Below, in pieces: positions 4,061 to 17,045 of a DNA stretch of 64,000 nucleotides. The notes under the pieces are model-generated. The model did not search any database. It saw only the letters and a list, made by a program, of their open reading frames with translations, and was not told where the DNA came from. The DNA comes from Candidatus Sumerlaeota bacterium. Lineage in GTDB: Bacteria; Sumerlaeota; Sumerlaeia; JAFGJS01. The first letter of the stretch is position 1. Every line of letters begins with the position of its first letter. Location: assembly GCA_016928995.1 (NCBI GenBank), contig JAFGJS010000070.1, forward strand, positions 1 through 64,000. The letters run 5' to 3'. The translations under genes and the position numbers were made by a program.

Positions 4061-4858
4061 TCACCCCTGAACGAACAATCGTTCAACCTCCTGTTGATTC
4101 CTCAAACACACAGGCAAATAGTCGCACCACTTGCACCACATGCCGGGGCGTTTGTGGAATTGTCGCTCGGTGATCTGTTGGCCTATATATGCCGCCTTTT
4201 CTAGAAACTCAGTCAGTTGCTGGCCATCACGCTGGGTCCAATGCCATTCGATGGATGGCTGCTTGGTTTTGACCAAGACGCAGAGGGCGAGGTTTTCGGC
4301 TTCGGGCTGGGCGAGGCGGTAGGCGGTGAGTTGATCGCTGAGGACCACGTCGGATTCAGCGTAGGCAGAGGCGCTGGTTTTGAAGTCGATGACGGTGCGT
4401 TTGCCGTCTACTGTTGCCACGAGGTCGATGACGCCGATGAGGGAGGCTTCGAGATTGGTGATGATGAGTTCGAAGGGTTGTTCGACGGCTTCGACCTTTT
4501 CGATGTGCGTGAGTTCTTCGTCGATGAATTTGGACATCAGTTTTTCGCCTTTGGTCTTGAGCGAATCCCAACTGTCGCGACCCGAGTATTTGAGTTCGGC
4601 ATCTTGGATTTGTTCCCAAAGTTCGATGAAGTGCTTTGCCGGATCGGCTCCGTGGAGAAAAAGATTAGCCAATGCTTGATGGATGAATTGGCCGAAGACC
4701 AGATTGGCTGGCGGGATTTTGAGTCGCAGTTTTTCCTCGTAATAGAGCCTGTATTGCTCCGGACAGAGTTGGTAGCGGTTGATGCGCGAATAGGAAAGTT
4801 TGGGAGCGCCTGAATGGATCAGGCGCTCCTCTTTTTCTTGGATTGCGATTGCGGCCAT
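4061..4858 (-). CDS. RecB/Cas4-like PD-(D/E)XK nuclease with Fe-S cysteines
   Basis: About 265 residues from ATG 4858. GGAGG is supplied by the last codons of the upstream gene, whose stop lies 2 bases before. Numbered from this start, the N-terminal region has SYSRINRYQLCPEQY (first Cys ~32), then GQFIH with the RecB-family His, then GVIDL (Asp ~145), VIDFKT (Asp and Lys ~158-160) and QLTAYR, which are the PD-(D/E)XK core motifs. The C-terminus carries CKWCDYLPVC. One N-terminal Cys plus three C-terminal Cys match the 4Fe-4S arrangement of AddB/Cas4-type nucleases. No cas gene or CRISPR array is present. It probably works with the SWIM protein encoded just upstream and the divergent ATPase genes. 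Role inferred: DNA end processing. Confidence 0.85.
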   Translation of the reverse strand: MAAIAIQEKEERLIHSGAPKLSYSRINRYQLCPEQYRLYYEEKLRLKIPPANLVFGQFIHQALANLFLHGADPAKHFIELWEQIQDAELKYSGRDSWDSLKTKGEKLMSKFIDEELTHIEKVEAVEQPFELIITNLEASLIGVIDLVATVDGKRTVIDFKTSASAYAESDVVLSDQLTAYRLAQPEAENLALCVLVKTKQPSIEWHWTQRDGQQLTEFLEKAAYIGQQITERQFHKRPGMWCKWCDYLPVCLRNQQEVERLFVQG

Positions 4859-4860
4859 GA

Positions 4861-5805
4861 TCACCGCCTCCCATTGTTGCCGTTGAGCGGCAACAACTGA
4901 TCGACGTTGGTGAAGCGGCCATTGCGCGAAAGCACCACGCGACAAGGCACATTGAGTTGAGTGCCTTGCTCTAACTGGCGGGAGAGATGGCCGTAGCCCG
5001 CGTTCTGCAACTGTTCGCCGAGGCTTTTCATCGAGCCGAACAGTTTGTAGTTTTGGCCGTTGGCGCTGACAGAGATGAATGTGCGCCAGCCAAACCTGGT
5101 CTGCATTCCGCCGACTTCGAACAGATAGGCATCCACGGCTTGGCCGTTCTGGTTGTCGTTGCCATGTCCATTGTTGCTGCGTTGCTGTTGTTGGCCGTTG
5201 TAGTCGTTGCCATGATTCTGTGGATAGTTTCTGCCGTTTCCGTTTCTATTACGATTGTAATGGGCGTGACCATTGTTGCCATTGCCGTTGCCATCGTTTC
5301 TGCTGTCATTACTGTTTCCATTCTGTTGGCGGCCTTTGAATTCCTGGGCGATCTGCTCTTGCAGGCCTAGAAGAACGGAAGCCTCATCAATCATCCAGCC
5401 GTCCATTTGACCGTCTAGTGGCAACGACAGTTCCACCGACAACGAGTCGATGCGGCCGTCGGGACTGACGCTACGCTTGAGCGTCATCATGGACTGCGAA
5501 GAAGCGGGCGCGGGATACGATTCATTGCCGTTGGGCGGAAATGATGTATCCAACGCTGGCTCTTGTTCTTCATCCGGCAGCTGACTGCGTACGGAGCGGA
5601 TGTGGTAGCAGGCGAAGCCTAGTTGACTTTTCATCGCCTGAAACGGACCGCAGGTGCAGCGTGGATGCTGACGCGTACCGGAGACGATGTAGGACACGTC
5701 TGGGGCACTGGGCGAATAGACGCGGATGCCTTCCGCACAGGGCGAAGAGACCAGCACATCGGGCCGGGCCTCCTCGACGGGTTGATCCAGTTGAGCAGTG
5801 CTCAT
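4861..5805 (-). CDS. SWIM zinc-finger protein with Asn/Gly-rich linker
   Basis: 314 residues. C50-x-C52...C66-x-H68 is a SWIM-type zinc finger (CTCG...ACYH), expected to bind DNA or protein. Residues ~155-222 are a low-complexity stretch of Asn, Gly, Gln, His and Arg. The C-terminal ~90 residues (FGWRTFISVSANGQNYKLFG onward) form a compact domain I do not recognise. The start at ATG 5805 follows GGAGGAA. The gene is translationally coupled to the downstream nuclease (2-base gap). It is divergent from the ATPase gene at 6068, across a repeat-containing spacer. A role as a DNA-binding adaptor for the nuclease or the ATPases is inference. Confidence 0.75.
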   Translation of the reverse strand: MSTAQLDQPVEEARPDVLVSSPCAEGIRVYSPSAPDVSYIVSGTRQHPRCTCGPFQAMKSQLGFACYHIRSVRSQLPDEEQEPALDTSFPPNGNESYPAPASSQSMMTLKRSVSPDGRIDSLSVELSLPLDGQMDGWMIDEASVLLGLQEQIAQEFKGRQQNGNSNDSRNDGNGNGNNGHAHYNRNRNGNGRNYPQNHGNDYNGQQQQRSNNGHGNDNQNGQAVDAYLFEVGGMQTRFGWRTFISVSANGQNYKLFGSMKSLGEQLQNAGYGHLSRQLEQGTQLNVPCRVVLSRNGRFTNVDQLLPLNGNNGRR

Positions 5806-5853
5806 GAGTTGTTCCTCCTTGGGATTGTATTGAAAGATCGAGGCTCGAATGGG

Positions 5854-5948
5854 TTCTCACACAGAGGCACGGAGGCACAGAGAACCGATTTTTTTGTGTT
5901 GCACATATAACATCAATTCTTGGTGTGCTTTGCGGCTTTGTGTGAGAA
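5854..5948. repeat. Imperfect inverted repeat with 10-bp perfect ends
   Basis: TTCTCACACA (5854-5863) pairs exactly with TGTGTGAGAA (5939-5948). The interior contains tandem GAGGCACRGAG-like units and AGAACCGATTTTTTT. A related direct copy starts at 11207, immediately after the large ATPase gene. The element occupies the divergent promoter region. Confidence 0.7.
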
Positions 5949-6067
5949 TTGCTTCGAGGCTGTCTTCAGTTTAGCTTGTGGAGGAAATCGGCCAAGACGG
6001 CGCGAAGTGCCGTGGCAAGCATGCTTCAGCGCCTTGTTGTTTGTCTGTGAAGCGTTATGCTGAAGGA

Positions 6068-7318
6068 ATGGCTTCTCTACAAAACAATCCGATCACCTTT
6101 TTTGGCCAGACTGATTTTCGCGGCGAAAACCGGCGTTTTGGCATTTATCAAACGGACCGGCGTGCTCACATGTACATGATTGGGAAGACCGGCACGGGCA
6201 AGAGCACGCTGCTGGAGAATTTGATCCGGCAGGATATGGAAAATGGACGTGGGCTTGCGTTGCTCGATCCACATGGGGATTTGTGTGAGAAAATTTATGC
6301 TTTGGTTCCAGCCAAGCGCCAGAAGGATGTGATTTATTTCAACGCTGCTGACGCGAACGCACCGGGATTCAATCCATTGGAGCGTGTGCCGCCGGACAAG
6401 TTTGCGTTGGCGGCGTCGGGACTGCTGGAGGCTTTCCGAGCGATCTGGTTGGATTCCTGGGGGCCGCGTTTGGAACACATTCTACGCAACGCGATTCTGG
6501 CGTTGCTGGAAACACCTGGTTCGACATTGGCGGATATCCCCCGTCTGTTTAATGAAAAACCGTTTCGCGCGAAGACCGCGACGGCTTTGAGTAATCCGCA
6601 GGTGAAGAATTTCTGGTTGCGGGAGTATGAAGGTTATACCGCACGGTTACGTGCCGAAGCTATCGCCCCGATCCAGAACAAGGCCGGGGCGTTTCTGGCA
6701 CATCCGGTGCTCAATCGCATATTAACGCAACAGCACAGCGGCTTTCATGCACGCAATATCATGGATAAGGGACAAGTGCTGTTGATCAATCTAGCCAAAG
6801 GCAAGATTGGCTATGACGCCTCACGCCTGCTGGGCGCGCTACTGTTGTCGCGGCTGACGCTGGCCGGATTGAGCCGCGCCGATCAACTGGAAGTGGAGCG
6901 CCGCGACTTCTACATCTACTTAGACGAATTTCCAAGTTACGCCACGCTAGAACTGGCGATGATGCTGTCCGAACTGCGCAAGTACCGCGTGGGTTTGATA
7001 TTGGCCCACCAGTATCTCACGCAATTGGATCTGCCGCTTCGCGATGCGATTCTAGGTAACGCTGGAACGCTCATCGCCTTTCGTACTGGCGTGGCTGACG
7101 CTGAAATCTTGGCCAAGGAATTCTATCCAGTGTTCAAGATCAGCGACCTGACTAACCTTCCCAACTATCGCATCTATTTGAAGCTGATGATTGACGGCGC
7201 AATATCCGAGCCGTTTAGCGCCGCAACGCTGCCGCCTTTGCAACTGGCCTTGCCATCGAATGAAATCATTTCACCGCAAGAAAAAACTGTAGGGCAGGTC
7301 ACATTGCCCTTGCCATAA
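6068..7318 (+). CDS. HerA/VirD4-like DNA translocase ATPase (smaller)
   Basis: About 416 residues from ATG 6068; an upstream GTG at 5978 in frame is an alternative start with GGAGG close by. Walker A is IGKTGTGKST at ~residues 38-47, followed by LLDPHGDL, a signature of the HerA/VirD4/TraD superfamily. Walker B is YIYLDEFP (~282). Sensor-like ILAHQYLTQL and the TraG/TraM-recognition-type ending (RTGVADAEILAKEF) follow. The family moves DNA through hexameric rings in conjugation, chromosome segregation or HerA-NurA resection. No membrane segment is present. It shares its core organisation with the larger ATPase ending at 11206, with one membrane-protein gene between them. No relaxase gene lies nearby. 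Confidence 0.85.
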   Translation: MASLQNNPITFFGQTDFRGENRRFGIYQTDRRAHMYMIGKTGTGKSTLLENLIRQDMENGRGLALLDPHGDLCEKIYALVPAKRQKDVIYFNAADANAPGFNPLERVPPDKFALAASGLLEAFRAIWLDSWGPRLEHILRNAILALLETPGSTLADIPRLFNEKPFRAKTATALSNPQVKNFWLREYEGYTARLRAEAIAPIQNKAGAFLAHPVLNRILTQQHSGFHARNIMDKGQVLLINLAKGKIGYDASRLLGALLLSRLTLAGLSRADQLEVERRDFYIYLDEFPSYATLELAMMLSELRKYRVGLILAHQYLTQLDLPLRDAILGNAGTLIAFRTGVADAEILAKEFYPVFKISDLTNLPNYRIYLKLMIDGAISEPFSAATLPPLQLALPSNEIISPQEKTVGQVTLPLP

Positions 7319-7378
7319 CCTTCGTTAATAATCTATCCATCATCAACAACCATTTAAGCATCAAGAAGGAGGGAGTGC

Positions 7379-8029
7379 ATGAGTTTAATTGAACCGCTCA
7401 GCAATTGGAACACCATGATCCAGGGGATGCAGGGCACAGCGGAGGAATTCTATGAGCGTTTGACGCTTACGATTGAACACATGAAGTTGCCGAACGTGGA
7501 ACTGAGCACAGTGGATTGGCCGGAAGCGGGATGGACCTCGGCCAAGCGGAAGTACTTGCGAGTCCAGCGCGGACGCTATGTTTTTGACATCTGCGCCGCG
7601 CCGTTTGGCCCTAATCACTTATTCTATTCGTGGTGGTTCGGGATCAAAATGCCAGGGATGTTCGCTTCCACTTTGCTCTTTCTGATCTTGCTTGGCGCAT
7701 CGTGGGCGGGCTTGTTGTTTTGTGGAGTCAAACTCTATTTTGCGCTGCCAATCGCTCCGGCGATTCTGCTGCTCTTATCCATTATTTTGGTGCGCACGGA
7801 TAACGATCTGGCGCTTTACATCTGTTCGATTTTTCTCATTGGTCCGGTGCTTAAGTTTCTGTTGCTGCCTTTCACCTACTACCGTTGTGACACCGAGGCG
7901 ATGTTTCAAAAAGGAGTGCACACCGCAGTGCTGGAAACTGTGGATTATTTGACCGGCCAGAACAACTTGCCGCAGCTGCCGGACGATCAGCGCAAGCCTA
8001 TCATGCGCGATTTCTTCCGCCGGAGATAA
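7379..8029 (+). CDS. Membrane protein of the ATPase cassette, unknown family
   Basis: 216 residues; AAGGAGG lies 6-7 bases before the ATG. Residues 1-80 are soluble and Trp/Arg-containing. Two or three long hydrophobic segments follow (FASTLLFLILLGASWAGLLF; ALPIAPAILLLLSIILV; YICSIFLIGPVLKFLLLPF), then a ~50-residue soluble tail ending in FFRRR. I do not recognise the family. Its position between two HerA/VirD4-like ATPase genes, 6 bases before the second, suggests a membrane partner or anchor for the translocase. That is inference. Confidence 0.7.
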   Translation: MSLIEPLSNWNTMIQGMQGTAEEFYERLTLTIEHMKLPNVELSTVDWPEAGWTSAKRKYLRVQRGRYVFDICAAPFGPNHLFYSWWFGIKMPGMFASTLLFLILLGASWAGLLFCGVKLYFALPIAPAILLLLSIILVRTDNDLALYICSIFLIGPVLKFLLLPFTYYRCDTEAMFQKGVHTAVLETVDYLTGQNNLPQLPDDQRKPIMRDFFRRR

Positions 8030-8035
8030 TGCGCC

Positions 8036-8128
8036 ATGCATCCTGACTTGGCCGAACAGATCAGCGAGCAGTTTCAAGTCTGGGAGACGCGCGGCCGCGG
8101 CTGGTTGCTGTGGAATGATCCGGTGTAA
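8036..8128 (+). pseudogene. N-terminal 30 codons of the large ATPase, cut off by in-frame TAA
   Basis: ATG 8036 opens MHPDLAEQISEQFQVWE... and reads to a TAA at 8126-8128. The next codon, TTG 8129, continues in the same frame with LEPPFAPFDP and stays open for 1,025 codons. The sense across the stop (WNDPV-stop-LEPPFAPF) reads like one continuous N-terminus. A single substitution (for example CAA, GAA or TAT to TAA) would explain it. Alternatives are a sequencing error, re-initiation at the adjacent TTG, or readthrough. Confidence 0.6.
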
Positions 8129-11100
8129 TTGGAACCGCCGTTTGCGCCGTTTGATCCAGCGTTGCGGCAACCTGCGATGATTGACGATGGTCGCCAAGCG
8201 TCGTGGCTGACGCGGCTGCTGGATCACTTGGGGGGCGTGCAATCCTTCAGGGAGCCGGATGACGGTGATGAGATTCCGGTCTCGGATGTGCCGTCGCCGG
8301 TTTACGATACGGACGATGACATTGCCACGGAATGGCAAGTCTTGCTGCCTGACGGCGCAAACATATCGCTGCCCGTGGTCGAGCAACTGCTATTGGGATT
8401 GAGTTTTTGCTCCGCACCGCTGGCGTTTGAAATCATCGGCAATGAAAAGCAGATCGCGATGCAACTGGCCTGCCGCCGGAGCGACGAATCGCGTTTATTG
8501 CAACAGGCCAAGGCGCATGCGCCTGGCGCAGTCTGGTCTCCGCCGCCTCAGCCCTTGCCCGTGACTTGGCCGCCGCCTTATGAGCGTCCGTCGCTGGTGG
8601 TGGATTTCGGCTTATCCAACGCCTTCCTATTGCCTTTGCGCATCTGGTCCGACCTTAAAACCGATCCGCTAGTCGGCGTGGTTGGGGCGTTATCAAACCT
8701 AATGGAGGAGGAATGGGGCGCACTGCAAATTCTGTTCAGTCCCATTCATCAGCCTTGGGCCGCGAGCGCGTTACATGCGTTAAATTTTTTCGATGCGCCG
8801 GAGTTACTCTCGCAAGCCCGGCAGAAAATCAGCGCACCGCTGTTCGCCGTCTGTTTGCGCGTAGCCGTCTCCAGCCCGGACGAAAACCGCTGTTGGCGCA
8901 TCGCTCAGGACATCGCCGCGCCGCTGGAACAATTGAGCAATCCCACTGGCAATGAGTTGATCCCCTTGGACAATGATGGTTATGACGCTCATGATCATCT
9001 ACTCGATTTTCTGGAGCGCCGCAGCCGCCGCAGCGGGATGCTGCTCAATGTCCGCGAGCTGCTTTCCCTGCTGCACTTTCCGTCCGAGAGCGTCAAGAGC
9101 GCCAAACTGCTGCGGCTGGATCGCCGAAGCAAGGCCGTTCCAGAGATCGCATTAGATCATGCGTTGACGCTGGGCGTCAATCAACACAACGGACAAGAGC
9201 GCACGGTCACGCTCAGCGCCGATCAACGCACGCGGCATGTCTATGTGGTCGGTGCATCTGGCACCGGCAAATCGACCTTGTTGCTCAACATGATCCGGCA
9301 GGATATTGAAGGCGGGGAAGGTTTAGCCGTGCTTGATCCTCACGGCGACCTGATTGACCGAATACTCGAATTCATTCCCGAAGAGCGCTTCGATGATGTA
9401 GTGCTCTTCGATCCGTCTGACGGCGAATTCCCGGTCGGCTTCAATATCCTCGAAGCCCACACCGAACTGGAAAAGACCTTGCTCGCTTCGGATCTGGTGG
9501 CGGTCTTCCGGCGGCTCTCCACGGCCTGGGGCGACCAGATGAATTCCGTACTGGCCAACACCATTGTCGCCTTCCTGGAAAGCAGCGAAGGCGGCACGCT
9601 TTCCGATCTGCGGCGTTTTCTGGTCGAGCCAGCCTTTCGAAAAAAGTTTTTGGAAACCGTCAGCGACAAGGAGATTGTCTATTACTGGCAGACCGAATTC
9701 CCCATGCTTTCGGGCAAGCCGCAAGGCCCGCTACTCACGCGGCTCGATACTTTTCTGCGGCCGAAACTGATCCGCCATATCGTTTGCCAGCAAAAGACCA
9801 AACTTGATTTCGCCAGGGTGATGAATGGGCGAGGCATCTTTCTGGCCAAACTGGCCCAAGGGGCCATCGGCGAAGAAAATGCCCATTTACTTGGTGCGCT
9901 CTTGGTCGCCAAAATCCATCAGACCGCGCTCAGCCGTCAAGACATTGCCGAAGCGCAACGTCAGAATTTTTGGCTGTACATCGACGAGTTTCACCACTTC
10001 ATCACGCCGTCGATGTCTTCGATTCTTTCCGGCGTGCGCAAGTTCCGCATGGGCCTGATTCTCGCGCATCAGGAACTTCGGCAACTTGGCCAGGATTCCG
10101 AAGTAGTCAACTCGGTCTTGTCCAATCCCTACACCCGCATCTGTTTTCGCTTGGGCGACGCCGACGCCCGCAAACTAGCCGCCGGATTTTCCGCCTTTGA
10201 AGAAAAAGACCTGCTCAACCTCAGCACCGGACAAGCCATTGTGCGCATGGAGCGCGCCGAGTACGACTTCAACTTGACTGTGCCGATGCTGGAACCCATC
10301 GAACCGGAGTTGGCCGAAGAACGCACGAACGCCATCCGCGAACTCTCGCGCGATCATTACGCCACCGAACGTGAAGAGGTGGAAGCCGCCCTCAACCATC
10401 GCTGGGAAGAGTATGCCGCAGAGGAAGAAGAAAAGAAACGAAAAGCAGAAGAGGAGAAGCAGGCAAAGAAAAAAACCGCTGATGCGTCCAAAACGTTCAA
10501 AACAGTACAAGAAAGCCCAGCGGGCAGTAGTACAACGTCAGTGGAAACTGCATTGAAAGAAACCGTCGCTCTTACATCACAACTACCGTCATCATCCGCT
10601 CCCGCCACGGCGGCTACGCCGGAAGCCAAGCCGCCAACGCCGCCTGCCGCTTTGCGCAAGACCGCGCCGCCCGCCCCCGCGCTGGGCGGACGCGGCGGCC
10701 AGCAGCACAAGTACCTGCAAAACCTGATCACCCAACTGGCTCAAGGCATGGGCTGGCGCGCCGATCTCGAAAAGCCCGTGCTCGATGGAGCAGGCAGCGT
10801 CGATGTTGCGCTCGAAAAAACTGGCTGCATGGTCGCCTGCGAAATCTCTGTTACCACGCCCGTCGAACACGAAGTCGGCAATATCGAGAAGTGCCTCAAA
10901 GCTGACTTCGATCATATACTGGCAGTCTCAAATGAGCCTAAACACCTTAACAAAATCAAGCAAGCCGCCGCAGCCGCATTGCCCGAAGCCGAACTCGCCA
11001 AAGTCGCCTACTGCGCCCCCGAGGAAGTCATCGCCTGCCTTGAACAAATCGATGCTCGCCTAGCCAGCAAGGAACAAACCGTCCGCGGCTGGAAAGTCAA

Positions 11101-11206
11101 AGTCAACTACCAGCCCCAAACCGAACAAGAAAAAGCCGCCAAGAAAGAAGCCATCAGCCAAGTTCTCCTCAAGCGGTTGGCCGGAAAAATGAAAAAGAAA
11201 CGATGA
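8129..11206 (+). CDS. Large HerA/VirD4-like ATPase with C-terminal nuclease-like domain
   Basis: 1,025 residues from TTG 8129, but probably begun originally at ATG 8036. Residues ~1-340 form an N-terminal region of unknown fold. Residues ~345-735 are the ATPase: Walker A GASGTGKST (~374), LDPHGDLI, Walker B WLYIDEFHHF (~616), LILAHQELRQL, and a TraG-type ending. Residues ~760-795 are a Lys/Glu-rich probable coiled coil, followed by a Pro/Ala-rich linker to ~850. Residues ~855-980 (GGRGGQQHKYLQNLI; SVDVALEKTG; CEISVTT) look like a PD-(D/E)XK fold in which the usual Lys of ExK is Ser. It is therefore either an inactive or variant nuclease. It is the last gene of the rightward cassette, and a repeat starts at the base after its stop. 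Confidence 0.8.
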   Translation: MEPPFAPFDPALRQPAMIDDGRQASWLTRLLDHLGGVQSFREPDDGDEIPVSDVPSPVYDTDDDIATEWQVLLPDGANISLPVVEQLLLGLSFCSAPLAFEIIGNEKQIAMQLACRRSDESRLLQQAKAHAPGAVWSPPPQPLPVTWPPPYERPSLVVDFGLSNAFLLPLRIWSDLKTDPLVGVVGALSNLMEEEWGALQILFSPIHQPWAASALHALNFFDAPELLSQARQKISAPLFAVCLRVAVSSPDENRCWRIAQDIAAPLEQLSNPTGNELIPLDNDGYDAHDHLLDFLERRSRRSGMLLNVRELLSLLHFPSESVKSAKLLRLDRRSKAVPEIALDHALTLGVNQHNGQERTVTLSADQRTRHVYVVGASGTGKSTLLLNMIRQDIEGGEGLAVLDPHGDLIDRILEFIPEERFDDVVLFDPSDGEFPVGFNILEAHTELEKTLLASDLVAVFRRLSTAWGDQMNSVLANTIVAFLESSEGGTLSDLRRFLVEPAFRKKFLETVSDKEIVYYWQTEFPMLSGKPQGPLLTRLDTFLRPKLIRHIVCQQKTKLDFARVMNGRGIFLAKLAQGAIGEENAHLLGALLVAKIHQTALSRQDIAEAQRQNFWLYIDEFHHFITPSMSSILSGVRKFRMGLILAHQELRQLGQDSEVVNSVLSNPYTRICFRLGDADARKLAAGFSAFEEKDLLNLSTGQAIVRMERAEYDFNLTVPMLEPIEPELAEERTNAIRELSRDHYATEREEVEAALNHRWEEYAAEEEEKKRKAEEEKQAKKKTADASKTFKTVQESPAGSSTTSVETALKETVALTSQLPSSSAPATAATPEAKPPTPPAALRKTAPPAPALGGRGGQQHKYLQNLITQLAQGMGWRADLEKPVLDGAGSVDVALEKTGCMVACEISVTTPVEHEVGNIEKCLKADFDHILAVSNEPKHLNKIKQAAAAALPEAELAKVAYCAPEEVIACLEQIDARLASKEQTVRGWKVKVNYQPQTEQEKAAKKEAISQVLLKRLAGKMKKKR

Positions 11207-11345
11207 TTCTCACACGAAGCACGTAAAGAACCGATTTTTTGACGGGATCAACAGGATGGACGGGATAACAAAAGATCAATGACACCACCCCATTCATGCG
11301 TTCAAAACATCCTGTAAATTCTGTTTATCCTGTCTAAAACACGAC
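11207..11345. repeat. Dispersed repeat region after the ATPase gene
   Basis: TTCTCACAC (11207-11215) and AGAACCGATTTTTTG (about 11226-11240) repeat the start of the element at 5854 in the same orientation. They are followed by GGGATCAACAGGATGGACGG and, ~80 bases on, its approximate inverse ending TTTATCCTGTCT. The arms can fold back on each other. Such CACAGAG and ACAGGAT phrases are common intergenic repeats in many uncultured bacteria. Confidence 0.6.
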
Positions 11346-11456
11346 ACGCTCTGCTTTCGCTTGACACGGCAAGGCTAGTGACGGCAAGCTGATCTTAGAT
11401 TTGATAAAGGAGCGGTCGTATCGAGCAAACGGCATTAACCTGATACATTTCCGATA

Positions 11457-11639
11457 AAAGTCTGCGTTCAGACTTGAGCGTTCTCAACTGCAAACACCAC
11501 CACCGGCCCGTATGGGCTGTAAGATGCGGAACGCACAAGAGCTGGATTGCTCCCGCCTAGGGAGTGCGTCCTGCTTTGTGCTTGCATCTTGGGGTGTGGT
11601 GCCCCGCAGTTGGAGCGCGAGCGGATGCGCTCCCTTTTT
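11457..11639 (+). ncRNA. Candidate structured non-coding RNA ending in a terminator
   Basis: The sequence folds into nested helices. Hairpin AAGTCTG/CAGACTT (11458-11475) comes first. Closing helix P1 is CAACTGC (11485-11491) with GCAGTTG (11606-11612). P2 is CACCACCACC (11495-11504) with GGGGTGTGGTG (11591-11601). Hairpin GCCC-GTAT-GGGC spans 11506-11517. A long hairpin has ends AAGATGC (11521-11527) and GCATCTT (11584-11590), with inner helices GCACAA/TTGTGC and GCTCCC/GGGAGTG. A terminator follows at once. The competing pairing GGGG/CCCC (11591-11605) suggests possible switching. I do not recognise an RNA family. A frame runs through it from 11512, but no plausible protein start lies before 11680. 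It could be an independent sRNA or a leader/riboswitch for the next gene. Confidence 0.6.
11612..11639 (+). terminator. Intrinsic terminator of the structured RNA
   Basis: GGAGCGC (11612-11618) pairs with GCGCTCC (11627-11633), followed by CTTTTT. It lies 40 bases before the start of the beta-propeller gene, so it ends the RNA or attenuates that gene. Confidence 0.75.
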
Positions 11640-11679
11640 CATTTTAAACCACATATCTTCCCACGTGAAAGGAGATAAA

Positions 11680-14600
11680 ATGATGCGGGCACAATTGTGT
11701 GCAATTTCCAGCGTTATGCTTATGTGTTTATGCGTGGCATATTATTCTGCAAATGTCTTTGCGGAAAACATGAATGTCGAATTTGTCAGTCAAATTGGCG
11801 GCGATTGCACGGCAGTCACAATCCAAGGCGACTATGCCTATATCGGCGAGGGAGTGAAACTGACGATCCTTGATATTGCCAATCCCGCCAGTCCTCAAGT
11901 CATGAGCCGGATTCAATTATCAAGCATAAGTTCATCTGACTACATTAACGACATTGCCGTAAACGGTTCATTCGTATATTTAACATATGGTGAAAGAACC
12001 ATTTGCCAAGGTGATAAATGCGGCATGCAAATCATCGATATTTCAAATCCTGCCAACCCGGTTTTACGCGGAGAATATATTATCCCCTATATTTCAAGTG
12101 AACCTGTTCCTGCAACGGGAGTGGCAGTCTCAGGCATCTTTGCGTATGTGTCAACCAGCAGATATCGCGGAAGCCACGGCGGATTATTGATTATCGATAT
12201 ATCAAATCCAGACAATCCCGTTTTGCGCGGTTCATATTATGAAGGTACATATTATGGGAAGGCTGAAGATGTCGCGATTGTCGGCTCGCTGGCTTACATG
12301 GCGTTCAGCGGAACTCAATATGGGCTTAGAATCATCGATGTATCAGATCCGGAGAATCCGGTCCTGCAAGGTTTATACGCCTCTCTTGGCGGTGCGCACG
12401 AAGTGGTGATCGCCAACTCACTGGCTTATGTGGCATATGGGGATATATATTCCGATACTGGCGGCTTACAGATCATTGATGTGACCAATCCAGCCGATCT
12501 ATTGCCGGTTGGCTTACTCGATGCTCCCGGCAATGTTGTTGGCTGTGCGGCATCTGGTTCCATTGCATATGCAGTAGGATCATTTGGCTTTTTGACGATT
12601 GACATATCTAATCCAACCGCTCCCGCCATACAAGGCTCATATAGCACTGTCGATGACGCGCAAGATGTTGCGGTTTCAGGCGCAACGGCCTTTGTTGCGG
12701 AAGGGGAAGATGGGGTTGAGATCATCGATGTATCCAGAATAGCCAGTCCATATTTAATGAGCGCTTGCACTACTGCGGGGGAATCTTATGGCGTCGATAC
12801 CTCGGGAACTTTAGCGTATATTGCGGACGGTGAAAATGGTCTTCAGATTGTTGATTTTTCAATCCCCGCTCAACCCGCATTAAGAGGTTCATATGACACT
12901 TCCGGTTTTGCGCTGGATGTGGCGGTTTCCGGGCATATGGCTTATGTCGCGGACCGATGGAGCGGCTTGCAGGTCATTGATGTATACAATCCTGACCGGC
13001 CTGTTTTCCGGGGCACTTGCGACACTGGTGGACAAGTCCTGGGAGTGGCGGTTTGGGGTTCATATGCTCTTGTGGCAGATAGTGTAAAAGGACTGATAAC
13101 TATCAATGTGGCGGAGCCTGATCATCCAAGGAAAGAGGGAACTTATGGCTATGACGATGCTCATGATGTGGCGACATCGGGTTCAGTCGCATTTGTGGCG
13201 GATGGTGAAAACGGTCTTCGGATTGTGGATGTATACGATCCATATGAGCCAATCTGGGGTAATTGCGACACTCCTGGCGATGCCCAAGGAGTGGCCGTTT
13301 TCGGTTCTCTCGCTTTTATTGCCGATGGCAGTGAAGGATTGCAGGTTTTTGATGTATCCGATATTACCAATCCAACGCTGACAGGCTCTTGCCAAACACC
13401 CGGCAATGCCATCGCCGTTACGGCAAACGATCATTTCGCCTATGTGTCCGACAATGAAAACGGCTTGCAGATTGTCGATGTGTCTAATCCGGCCAATCCG
13501 GTATTGCGCGGATCATACACCATTCAGAGCGACTGTCAAAAGGTCGCTCACTCCGGCACATTGGCTTTTCTAACGGATGTTGAACTCGGAGTGCAGATCA
13601 TTGATGTATCCAATCCAGACAACTTAAATCAGCTATCTGTATATGAAACTTTTGACTACTCAAACTGTCTCGATATTTCTGGGTCATCGGCTTTTGTGTC
13701 AACAGGCTTAAACAATAATCCGAGTCCAGGCCCTGGTGGAATACAAATAATCGACATCTCAAATCCAGCAATCCCGGTTTCTACAGGATTTATCCCCACA
13801 CCCTATGTGCCGCAAGATGTAGAAATATCGGGAACACTTGCCTATATTGCCCATTACCGTTATCCCTACAATTCTGGCGGTTTTCAAATTTTCGATATAT
13901 CCAATCCCTATAATACTGAATTGTGTGGCGCGTATATCGGCTATGATTCATCGAAAGTCGTGGTTTCCGGTGCGCTGGCCTATTTGGCAACAGATTATTA
14001 TGGATTGTTGATCTTCGATGTAGCCAATCCGGCTAATCCAATATTGCTTGGTTCTTATGACACTAGAGCCAACGATGTGGTAATATCCGGTTCATACGCA
14101 CATGTGGCCGATTCATCTTACGGATTAAAAATCATCGACATTTCAAATCCAGCCGATCCTTTTTTGCGTGGTTCTTATCCTACTGACAACGCCAATGGCA
14201 TCGCCCTTAAAGATTCAATGGCATATATTGCTGATGGAAATGAACTGAAAATCATTGATGTATCATATCCAATCAGCCCGGTGCTTATAGGCATCTATGA
14301 CACTGCTGGAGAAGCGCAAGAGATTGCAATCTTGGGCTCGTTAGCCTTTATTCTTGATGGCGGTTGGTATGGAGGTCTGCGAGTGATCGACGTATCCAAT
14401 CCTGATGATCCGGTTCTGTGCGGATCTTATGATATTCCGTATAAAACAAGCATGAAGATGTCTGGTCTTGATATATATCTCACCGGGGATGAGTTGACAG
14501 TCTTGCGCTATGCGCCGACGAATTCACTGACAATCACGGGCAATACAGTGGTTGGTGGAACTCGCGTGGAATTCAGCGGTCTGGCGACAGTGTGGTCCGA

Positions 14601-14883
14601 TACCGCTGGCGATTATCAATATGAACTTATCCCTTATGGCTGGAGCGGCACGATCATTCCGTCCAAGCCGGATTATGTCTTTTTGCCAACGCAACGCTCC
14701 TATGCCAACGTTACGGCTGATTTAAGCGATCAAGATTTTACCGTCAGTCGCGCATTCTATGCCAAGGTACGCGATCATATTCTGGGTATTAAAACATTAA
14801 CAGGTGATGACCTGATTAACGCAGACGCCAACGGCGATGGCCTGGTGGACATGGCCGACATTCTTCAACTGAAAACGCCATAA
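11680..14883 (+). CDS. Secreted LVIVD-repeat beta-propeller protein with dockerin-like end
   Basis: About 1,067 residues. ATG 11680 is chosen because GAAAGGAG precedes it and a signal peptide (MMRAQLCAISSVMLMCLCVA) begins there. Most of the protein is some twenty repeats of the LVIVD type, each reading roughly GLQIIDVSNPANPVLRGSYD then a small-residue strand such as VAVSGSLAYVAD. These are predicted to form stacked beta-propellers on the cell surface. Residues near the C-terminus carry an Ig-like segment and then NADANGDGLVDMADILQL, a dockerin/EF-hand calcium motif in a single copy. The role is probably binding or adhesion. The gene is less GC-rich than its neighbours. It is cargo between the ATPase cassette and the recombinase. 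Confidence 0.85.
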   Translation: MMRAQLCAISSVMLMCLCVAYYSANVFAENMNVEFVSQIGGDCTAVTIQGDYAYIGEGVKLTILDIANPASPQVMSRIQLSSISSSDYINDIAVNGSFVYLTYGERTICQGDKCGMQIIDISNPANPVLRGEYIIPYISSEPVPATGVAVSGIFAYVSTSRYRGSHGGLLIIDISNPDNPVLRGSYYEGTYYGKAEDVAIVGSLAYMAFSGTQYGLRIIDVSDPENPVLQGLYASLGGAHEVVIANSLAYVAYGDIYSDTGGLQIIDVTNPADLLPVGLLDAPGNVVGCAASGSIAYAVGSFGFLTIDISNPTAPAIQGSYSTVDDAQDVAVSGATAFVAEGEDGVEIIDVSRIASPYLMSACTTAGESYGVDTSGTLAYIADGENGLQIVDFSIPAQPALRGSYDTSGFALDVAVSGHMAYVADRWSGLQVIDVYNPDRPVFRGTCDTGGQVLGVAVWGSYALVADSVKGLITINVAEPDHPRKEGTYGYDDAHDVATSGSVAFVADGENGLRIVDVYDPYEPIWGNCDTPGDAQGVAVFGSLAFIADGSEGLQVFDVSDITNPTLTGSCQTPGNAIAVTANDHFAYVSDNENGLQIVDVSNPANPVLRGSYTIQSDCQKVAHSGTLAFLTDVELGVQIIDVSNPDNLNQLSVYETFDYSNCLDISGSSAFVSTGLNNNPSPGPGGIQIIDISNPAIPVSTGFIPTPYVPQDVEISGTLAYIAHYRYPYNSGGFQIFDISNPYNTELCGAYIGYDSSKVVVSGALAYLATDYYGLLIFDVANPANPILLGSYDTRANDVVISGSYAHVADSSYGLKIIDISNPADPFLRGSYPTDNANGIALKDSMAYIADGNELKIIDVSYPISPVLIGIYDTAGEAQEIAILGSLAFILDGGWYGGLRVIDVSNPDDPVLCGSYDIPYKTSMKMSGLDIYLTGDELTVLRYAPTNSLTITGNTVVGGTRVEFSGLATVWSDTAGDYQYELIPYGWSGTIIPSKPDYVFLPTQRSYANVTADLSDQDFTVSRAFYAKVRDHILGIKTLTGDDLINADANGDGLVDMADILQLKTP

Positions 14884-14948
14884 TGCGTTTCAACCAGGAC
14901 CAAACCATAGCAACACTTCAACCACTTCACTTAATCGGAGCAACGACC

Positions 14949-15377
14949 ATGAATAAAACGACAAGTTTTTATATTCGCAAAAATAATTTGACCGCTTGGA
15001 CGGCAGTCCAATCCCGCCGCATGATTCTGCTGCTATTTCTCGCCTTGATCCCTGCTGGGTGCGCCAGATATGCCAACGTTTCACCGGACTCCCGGTTGGC
15101 CGATATCCGGGTCGGTATGGGAGAATCTGAAATGCAACGAGCGATTGGCCGCTCATGGGACGACGCCGATATTCTCACATATCCGGGCAATATTCTGATT
15201 TCCCTGCCTTTTAAACTGCTCTTCTTGGATTTGTTCATCCAGCCGCCGCTGACCGGCTCCTGTTACTACTACCGAGGCGAAGGCCGGGTTTATGTCCGGC
15301 AGGGCTGGTTCTGGTTCAGCCGGGGACACCGGGTGTACCGGGTGGTGGGCGACCGGCGGGAAGACGGCTATTTATGA
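14949..15377 (+). CDS. Small lipoprotein, unknown function
   Basis: ATG 14949 is preceded by CGGAG; the frame itself opens at 14883. About 142 residues: a hydrophobic segment MILLLFLALIPAGC with a lipobox at Cys, then LADIRVGMGESEMQRAIGRS, which resembles the short helix-turn region of SmpA/BamE-like lipoproteins. Two Trp/Tyr-rich segments follow (YYYRGEGRVYVRQGWFWF) and an RVYRVVGDRREDGY end. Outer-membrane or periplasmic attachment is likely. It follows the propeller gene by 65 bases and may share its transcript. Confidence 0.6.
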   Translation: MNKTTSFYIRKNNLTAWTAVQSRRMILLLFLALIPAGCARYANVSPDSRLADIRVGMGESEMQRAIGRSWDDADILTYPGNILISLPFKLLFLDLFIQPPLTGSCYYYRGEGRVYVRQGWFWFSRGHRVYRVVGDRREDGYL

Positions 15378-15497
15378 CGACGCCAGCTCTGAGGCAATAA
15401 TGCGGCCATAATCCGGTTGATCGGCATGCGCTTTTGCGGTATATCAGCCGAATCTCGAATCGATTTTCAGCGGTCATTGAGCGAGAAGGAATCTTTC

Positions 15498-17045
15498 ATG
15501 AAAAAGCCAAATCAACAGCCGCCCCCCGACAATCATGCCAAGCGGGTTGGAATCTGGATTCGCGTCTCAACCGAAGACCAGGCGCGGGGTGACAGTCCGC
15601 AACATCATGAGACGCGCGCCCGGCAATACGCCGAGCTGAAAAACTGGCAGATTGTCACGGTCTATCATCTCGAAGCGGTCAGCGGCAAGTCGGTCGTGGA
15701 GCATCCGGAAGCTCGCCGCATGCTTGCCGACATCAAAGAAGGGCGCATTTCCGGTCTCATCTTTTCGAAATTGGCCCGCTTGGCCCGTAATACCAAGGAA
15801 CTGCTGGAAATCGCCGAGGTCTTCGAGCGCTACGATGCCGACCTGATCAGCCTGCATGAATCCATCGACACTTCCAGCCCCGCCGGGCGACTGTTCTACA
15901 CCATGTTCGCGGCAATGGCCCAATGGGAGCGCGAGGAGATCGCCGACCGGGTGGCCGCCACCGTTCCGGTTCGCGCCCAACTGGGCAAATCCACCGGCGG
16001 ACAGGCTCCGTTCGGTTATCAATGGAAAGATAACCAACTGATCCCCGATCCGGCCGAGGCTCCGATCCGCCGCAAAATCTTTGAACTCTATAAGGAGCAC
16101 CGCCGTAAAAAGACCGTGGCCCAATTGCTCAACGAGGCGGGTTACCGCACTCGCCAAGGAGCGAAGTTCACCGATTCGACCGTCCACCGGCTGCTTACCG
16201 ATCCAATCGCCAAGGGCCAGCGCCGGGTCAACTACACCAAAAACTCCGGCGATGGACATTGGAAACTCAAGCCGGAATCCGAATGGGTCTATGTCAATGT
16301 CGAACCGGTGGTGGACGAGGAACTGTGGAACGTCTGCAACCAGATTTTGAACGACCAACGTGTCAAGCGCCGGCCGGTTGGCAAAAAGCCTGCTCACTTG
16401 TTCGCGGGCATGGCCGTCTGCCATTGCGGGCAGAAAATGTACGTGCCGTCCAACAGTCCGAAATACATCTGCAAAAAATGCCGCAACAAAATCCCGGCTG
16501 ACGATCTGGAGGCGATCTACTTCGAACAACTCAAAGCGTTCTTCCTCTCGCCGGAAGAAACCGCCGATTATCTGGAGTCTGCCGATCAGGTGCTCAAGGA
16601 GAAAGAGGAACTGATTCGCGCGTTGGAGCAGGAGCGTGAAACCGCCGCCAAAGAGATGGATCGCGTTTACCAACTTTACATCGACGGAACCATCAGCAGC
16701 CAAGGATTTGGTCAGCGCTACCGTCCACTTGAAGAGCAGGTCAACCAACTTGACGACCAGATTGCCAAACTCCAGGGCGAGGCCGATTGCTTACGAATCA
16801 GCTACCAATCCAGCGATCAAATCCTGACCGAAGCCCGCGATTTATACTCCCATTGGCAAGACCTTGATTTTGACGACAAACGACACATTATTGAAAACAT
16901 CACCGAATCCATCGTGATCGGCGATGGCGACATCACCATAGACCTTTGTTATCTCCCATCTTATCAAGACATGGCAAAAGGGCAACGAATCGTGTCGGAA
17001 GCAGCGGATCCATGCCCATTAGCGTGTCGCCGATGGCCACGTTAA
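15498..17045 (+). CDS. Large serine recombinase (site-specific integrase)
   Basis: ATG 15498 follows GAGAAGGA. The resolvase catalytic domain holds IWIRVSTEDQ with the nucleophilic Ser, FSKLARLARN, and the arm EREEIADRV. A recombinase domain follows (TGGQAPFGY... DSTVHRLLTDPIAKG), then a zinc ribbon (CHCG...CKKC) and a coiled coil, which is the layout of large serine integrases. Family members commonly end shortly after a YLPS..DM.KGQR segment. Here the frame continues ~15 codons more, reading antisense into a truncated surface-protein gene. The native end is therefore probably near 16985, and the remaining codons come from the insertion target. It is the likely integrase of the island to its left. 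Confidence 0.9.
   Translation: MKKPNQQPPPDNHAKRVGIWIRVSTEDQARGDSPQHHETRARQYAELKNWQIVTVYHLEAVSGKSVVEHPEARRMLADIKEGRISGLIFSKLARLARNTKELLEIAEVFERYDADLISLHESIDTSSPAGRLFYTMFAAMAQWEREEIADRVAATVPVRAQLGKSTGGQAPFGYQWKDNQLIPDPAEAPIRRKIFELYKEHRRKKTVAQLLNEAGYRTRQGAKFTDSTVHRLLTDPIAKGQRRVNYTKNSGDGHWKLKPESEWVYVNVEPVVDEELWNVCNQILNDQRVKRRPVGKKPAHLFAGMAVCHCGQKMYVPSNSPKYICKKCRNKIPADDLEAIYFEQLKAFFLSPEETADYLESADQVLKEKEELIRALEQERETAAKEMDRVYQLYIDGTISSQGFGQRYRPLEEQVNQLDDQIAKLQGEADCLRISYQSSDQILTEARDLYSHWQDLDFDDKRHIIENITESIVIGDGDITIDLCYLPSYQDMAKGQRIVSEAADPCPLACRRWPR

Follow-up and report, generated by a model that had tools for sequence, protein, structure and literature searches.

What is the RNA that lies between a pair of ATPase genes and a propeller-protein gene on mobile DNA of a Candidatus Sumerlaeota bacterium, and what might it do there? 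The 64,000-nucleotide stretch that we analyzed (contig JAFGJS010000070.1, here denoted the window) had been predicted, from its letters, to encode at this place a strongly folded RNA with at least five perfectly nested helices and an intrinsic terminator at its end. Folding of the plus strand at 11457-11639 gave a minimum free energy of -94.8 kcal/mol, compared with -66.4 +/- 4.5 kcal/mol for dinucleotide shuffles (z -6.3), and 0 of 200 shuffles folded as well. The window RNA forms six nested helices and ends in a 7-bp GC-rich hairpin, in which 11612-11618 pairs with 11627-11633, followed by CTTTTT. The outer 3' bases of the closing helix P1 (11612-11618) double as the 5' arm of the terminator, and since P1 and the terminator compete for these bases, not everything nests simultaneously. 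The features of the RNA and of its surroundings are listed in Table 1.

Table 1. Coordinates in the window of the RNA, its parts and the features around it.
Feature	Position	Strand	Basis or remark
Upstream box GGTCGTATCGAGCA	11414-11427	+	read from the sequence; putative promoter role
RNA, most likely ~160-190 nt, to the terminator end	11457-11639	+	fold z, homologues, covariation
Conserved 5' tract, two copies of GCGTTC, preceding and within the closing helix	11464-11483	+	alignments
Closing helix P1 (11478-11491 with 11606-11618)	11478-11618	+	fold, covariation, arm swap
Internal loop J1/2 (AAA 11492-11494 facing CCCC 11602-11605)	11492-11605	+	member alignment
Helix P2 (11495-11504 with 11593-11601)	11495-11601	+	fold, covariation
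Small side hairpin P3	11505-11518	+	fold, covariation
Helix P4 (11520-11529 with 11582-11591)	11520-11591	+	covariation, arm swap
Apical hairpin P5/P6	11530-11581	+	alignment, covariation
Possible alternative GGGG/CCCC hairpin, excludes P2	11591-11605	+	separate fold of the 3' 47 nt; MAFFT alignment
Intrinsic terminator GGAGCGC-GAGCGGAT-GCGCTCC-CTTTTT	11612-11639	+	terminator detection, alignment
Cargo insert: inverted repeat, RNA, propeller gene, 164-aa lipoprotein-like ORF	11207-15392	+	without counterpart in the G013 island
Downstream gene: signal peptide, 16 LVIVD propeller repeats, weak C-terminal dockerin match	11680-14883	+	
Large serine recombinase after the insert, Resolvase and Recombinase domains	15417-17045	+	

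The window RNA matched none of the 4227 families of Rfam 15 at the gathering cut-off, which we took as the threshold of membership. A permissive search (E<=5) produced no plus-strand match and one sub-threshold match on the minus strand, with 22.8 bits against a cut-off of 40.6. The three related RNAs described below gave chance-level scores only in the same permissive search, and the known Rfam classes were accordingly rejected for all four sequences. ARAGORN was negative on the window RNA, which rejects a tRNA or tmRNA identity, and a literature search returned no paper naming Sumerlaeota together with noncoding RNA. As far as Rfam 15 and the searched literature go, the RNA is undescribed.

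A DNA similarity search covering the genome itself, 193 relatives, phages and plasmids found no second copy. A covariance model built from the single window sequence and its fold (R1) was searched on 40 genomes of the phylum and found two relatives, with E values of 4e-9 and 2e-7; a three-sequence covariance model (R2) recovered both and added a more divergent second copy (E 0.06) in a genome that already held one. The family thus has four members in 3 of the 40 Candidatus Sumerlaeota genomes: the window copy, G001a (genome G001, contig 168), G001b (G001, contig 170) and G020 (contig 298), with pairwise identities of 48-65%. G001b scored 91 bits with a further model, R3, which was trained with G001b included. 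It carries the landmarks of the other members (ACGCNCAAG, CAAAC, GCYCYG and the terminator), folds unconvincingly alone (z -1.1) and may be a decaying copy.

Wider searches added no member to these four. None was found in 346 further genomes, and nothing else with stricter filters in 386 genomes from the phylum and outside it. A pattern scan of ~85,000 genome assemblies yielded 37 matches, among which only two Sumerlaeota loci scored, neither of them new. Pattern matches on viral contigs were judged, from their sequences, to be coding regions or unrelated, R2 scored none of them, and a stricter pattern on these contigs returned nothing. The pattern matches in other Sumerlaeota genomes were not members either, and the list obtained with the 14-mer GTCTGGTGCTGTGC was uninformative. 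We rejected a weak match in genome G009 (E 4), which lacks both the terminator and the apical hairpin and looks coding.

The model-guided alignment of the four members, the only sequences on which the covariation rests, showed 93.5% of the cells paired over 57 pairs, with 29 of the 57 changed on both sides yet still paired. None of 500 shuffles reached any of these measures, and sliding the partners abolished the pairing signal. Because such an alignment leans towards the structure, we also carried out an independent arm-swap test, in which helix arms were excised at a fixed distance from anchors of conserved sequence and swapped among the members. Among the 24 arrangements, each arm's own partner was the best for P1, P2, P3 and P4; P5/P6 ranked third of 24, being too conserved to discriminate. 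The anchoring of this test answers the behavior of a structure-blind MAFFT alignment, which supports only the apical hairpin and the GGGG/CCCC hairpin, since indels shift P1-P4. Seven pairs of P4 changed on both sides across the members. The original prediction had named two results that would speak against it, homologues lacking compensatory changes and a match to a known family; the compensated pairs and the Rfam searches gave the opposite on both counts. We conclude that this is almost certainly a true structured RNA family.

The alignment also bears on the strand and on the loops. G-U cells outnumbered A-C cells (32 versus 6), indicating that the plus strand is the RNA strand; the sequences thus give indirect support to transcription from that strand. 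Invariance was more frequent in unpaired columns (12 of 22) than in paired ones (28 of 93), as expected if the loops bind something. The CAAAC side of J1/2 is invariant in all four members, as are ACGCNCAAG (11531-11539) and GTGCT (11578-11582) in the apical hairpin, and each member ends with a GC-rich hairpin and a T run. Pairing of GGGG (11591-11594) with CCCC (11602-11605), which had been put forward as a possible switch, can form in all four members. These bases are nearly invariant, leaving almost no variation to judge by, and the pairing conflicts with the covarying P2.

The RNA had also been considered as a component of the island in which it lies. This island encodes a PD-(D/E)XK nuclease, two TraD/HerA-like ATPases and a large serine recombinase. 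In genome G013 a syntenic island retains all four of these genes, with an ATPase gene directly abutting the recombinase gene and no RNA, whereas 4.2 kb separate the two genes in the window. The RNA therefore came with, or as part of, the cargo insert, and the other three copies lie beside unrelated genes. Judged from this gene order, the RNA is no working part of the island machinery, and we dropped the island ATPases as definers of its system after the comparison with G013. The module itself (4061-11206 and 15417-17045), comprising the nuclease, a 314-aa protein, the two ATPases and the recombinase, is 37-63% identical to that of G013; the ATPases give weak matches to the MADS component mad8, the recombinase has CcrB as its best NCBIfam match, well under the cut-off of that family, and the whole is possibly an uncharacterised mobile or defence module. 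The 164-aa lipoprotein-like ORF of the insert (14883-15377, plus strand) has a 52% identical relative on contig 74 of genome G006, with neither the RNA nor a propeller gene nearby.

Neighbor genes are unrelated between the four loci. G001a lies ~1.5 kb from a phage-type integrase. G001b stands directly 3' of a prophage endolysin gene and downstream of tail genes; the prophage on its contig (L207, L219), which encodes tail fibre J and the endolysin, is close to an operon that looks cas-like as read from the ORFs, and very large repeat-rich exported proteins are encoded downstream of the RNA. The G020 RNA adjoins a divergent gene for a DUF4011-type helicase with candidate defence proteins among its relatives; this DUF4011/AAA helicase (L208:2295-4552) matches PDC-S37 and Hhe of PADLOC. 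Judged by their N-termini, the products of the four genes that follow the RNA on its own strand are exported or membrane proteins; these downstream genes are unrelated to each other. From these contexts the RNA appears to move with cargo genes and not with one mobile element. The four copies constitute a new family of structured RNAs on Sumerlaeota mobile DNA, for which the mechanism that follows is a proposal.

The original prediction had listed a regulator or riboswitch-like leader among its options, and this option is plausible: P1 overlaps the terminator, the two states have nearly equal energies in two members, and in two members the gap to the next gene is too small for a promoter. The P1 outer strand and the terminator share bases in G020 and G001a as well as in the window copy. 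Whole-RNA energies of the two states were -87.5 versus -86.7 kcal/mol in the window copy, a difference of 0.8, and -98.2 (P1 state) versus -98.9 kcal/mol (terminator state) in G020, a difference of 0.7. The P1 state of G001a is favored by 8.6 kcal/mol over the terminator state as modelled, and neither state of G001b folds convincingly in the energy modelling. The T run is followed by the Shine-Dalgarno sequence after 29 nt in the window (propeller gene, 11669-11674) and after ~7-8 nt in G001a, gaps in which a conventional promoter would not fit. Transcription of these two genes must therefore either run through the terminator or start at a promoter that overlaps the RNA. Our best reading, which we hold tentatively, is a mobile, riboswitch-like attenuator leader that acts in cis by choosing between termination and read-through, with putative ligand and function. 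Stabilisation of the core P2-P6, with its invariant CAAAC/GCYC loop and ACGCNCAAG apical element, by a ligand or protein would leave P1 fully paired; the terminator would then be blocked and the exported cargo gene transcribed. With the core unstabilised, the terminator would prevail.

The gaps between the RNA terminator and the next gene are wider in G020 (~95 nt) and G001b (~350 nt, holding a promoter-like TTGACT-17-TAAGAC). They leave room for a promoter, and these two copies therefore need not be leaders, which keeps an autonomous small RNA a close second. Under this alternative, which we consider quite possible, a trans-acting (or protein-bound) RNA, transcribed from a promoter of its own and ended by a constitutive terminator, would be carried on mobile elements, and its exposed conserved tracts (the GCGTT repeats, ACGCNCAAG and the GCYC loop) would contact a target RNA or protein. 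All four members have their own terminator, their neighbor genes are unrelated and G001b is far from the next gene, as a small RNA would predict. Upstream of G001a, a box sharing 13 of 14 bases with that of the window (GGTCGTATCGAGCA; 46 nt from GCGTTCA in G001a, ~50 nt in the window) stands directly 5' of a perfect extended -10 (TGCTATAAT), ~30 nt before the RNA; these elements would suit a leader and a small RNA alike. A small RNA would leave the propeller and lipoprotein genes, with their gaps of 29 and ~7-8 nt, without an evident promoter, and would explain neither the overlap of P1 with the terminator nor the exported-protein gene after each copy.

The remaining alternatives appear weaker. 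The RNA could serve as a boundary of cargo units, ending the transcription of an invaded operon and protecting or starting a separate cargo gene, with the core stabilising the RNA. The window copy in the 5' part of the insert, behind an operon, and G001b directly behind the endolysin gene fit such an insulator, which we nevertheless find unlikely, as a plain terminator would be enough, six covarying helices with invariant loops imply more, and the G020 RNA and its upstream neighbor are divergently oriented. A hairpin acting at the DNA level, as an attC-like site for cassette recombination, would accord with the edge of the cargo insert, the mobile DNA and the unrelated neighbors. Such a site is highly improbable given the excess of G-U over A-C cells, which signals selection on one RNA strand, and the T run after the hairpin in all four members; by reading, moreover, the hairpin base differs between members and they share no core site of the GTTRRRY type. 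An integron attC site in particular was rejected, the members being without the GTTRRRY consensus at the hairpin base. Similar length and a rod-like shape with a terminator are common to several RNA classes, so that the Rfam models could have missed a known class, such as 6S RNA or an established riboswitch, in a strongly diverged form. There is little to recommend this explanation when no member has a meaningful Rfam match even at E<=5, and when an occurrence in 3 of 40 genomes, on mobile DNA, is unlike that of a housekeeping RNA.

The attenuator leader resembles transcription-attenuating riboswitches of the ON type and other attenuator leaders in its conserved folded core, in the overlap of the 3' strand of the closing helix with the terminator and, for two members, in the short gap to the downstream gene. 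It differs from ON-type riboswitches in having no Rfam match and no assigned ligand, and in preceding unrelated exported-protein genes on mobile DNA, with two members that are not tight leaders. Comparative genomics has brought to light other orphan structured RNAs, including manA and wcaG, motifs that occur in phages too (Weinberg et al. 2010, PMC2864571). Like these, the Sumerlaeota RNA was found by covariation, has no assigned function and is shared between hosts and phages; its sequence and fold are different, it matched no Rfam motif and it is so far confined to Candidatus Sumerlaeota. RNA genes on prophages are also exemplified by IsrK of Gifsy-1, one RNA that can function as an sRNA and can also form part of an mRNA (PMC4825925). 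The Sumerlaeota fold is much more elaborate, and no relation in sequence or structure is apparent.

The family adds a covariation-supported RNA, absent from Rfam, to a phylum whose RNA biology is apparently unstudied. That it occurs on diverse types of mobile DNA, always followed by an exported-protein gene, suggests a possible role as an RNA gate that mobile elements bring along for their cargo. A bolder version, in which a novel class of mobile RNA switch senses a ligand or protein, travels with cargo between prophages and recombinase islands and gates the expression of exported proteins, seems to us less likely than not. The four-member alignment offers direct targets for ligand and reporter tests.

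Two observations concern the immediate surroundings of the window RNA. Just 5' of it lies an imperfect inverted repeat (11250-11334; ACAGGATGGACGGGATAA ... TTCTGTTTATCCTGTC), and 33 nt of this region match, at 91%, a place on a Thiodictyon plasmid where no gene is listed. The propeller reading frame extends without a stop codon back to an ATG inside the RNA (11512-14883, plus strand), across the 3' two thirds of the RNA, and a comparable open frame runs through G001a; as the sequence is GC-rich and the indels of the RNA ignore codons, the open frame is probably due to chance.
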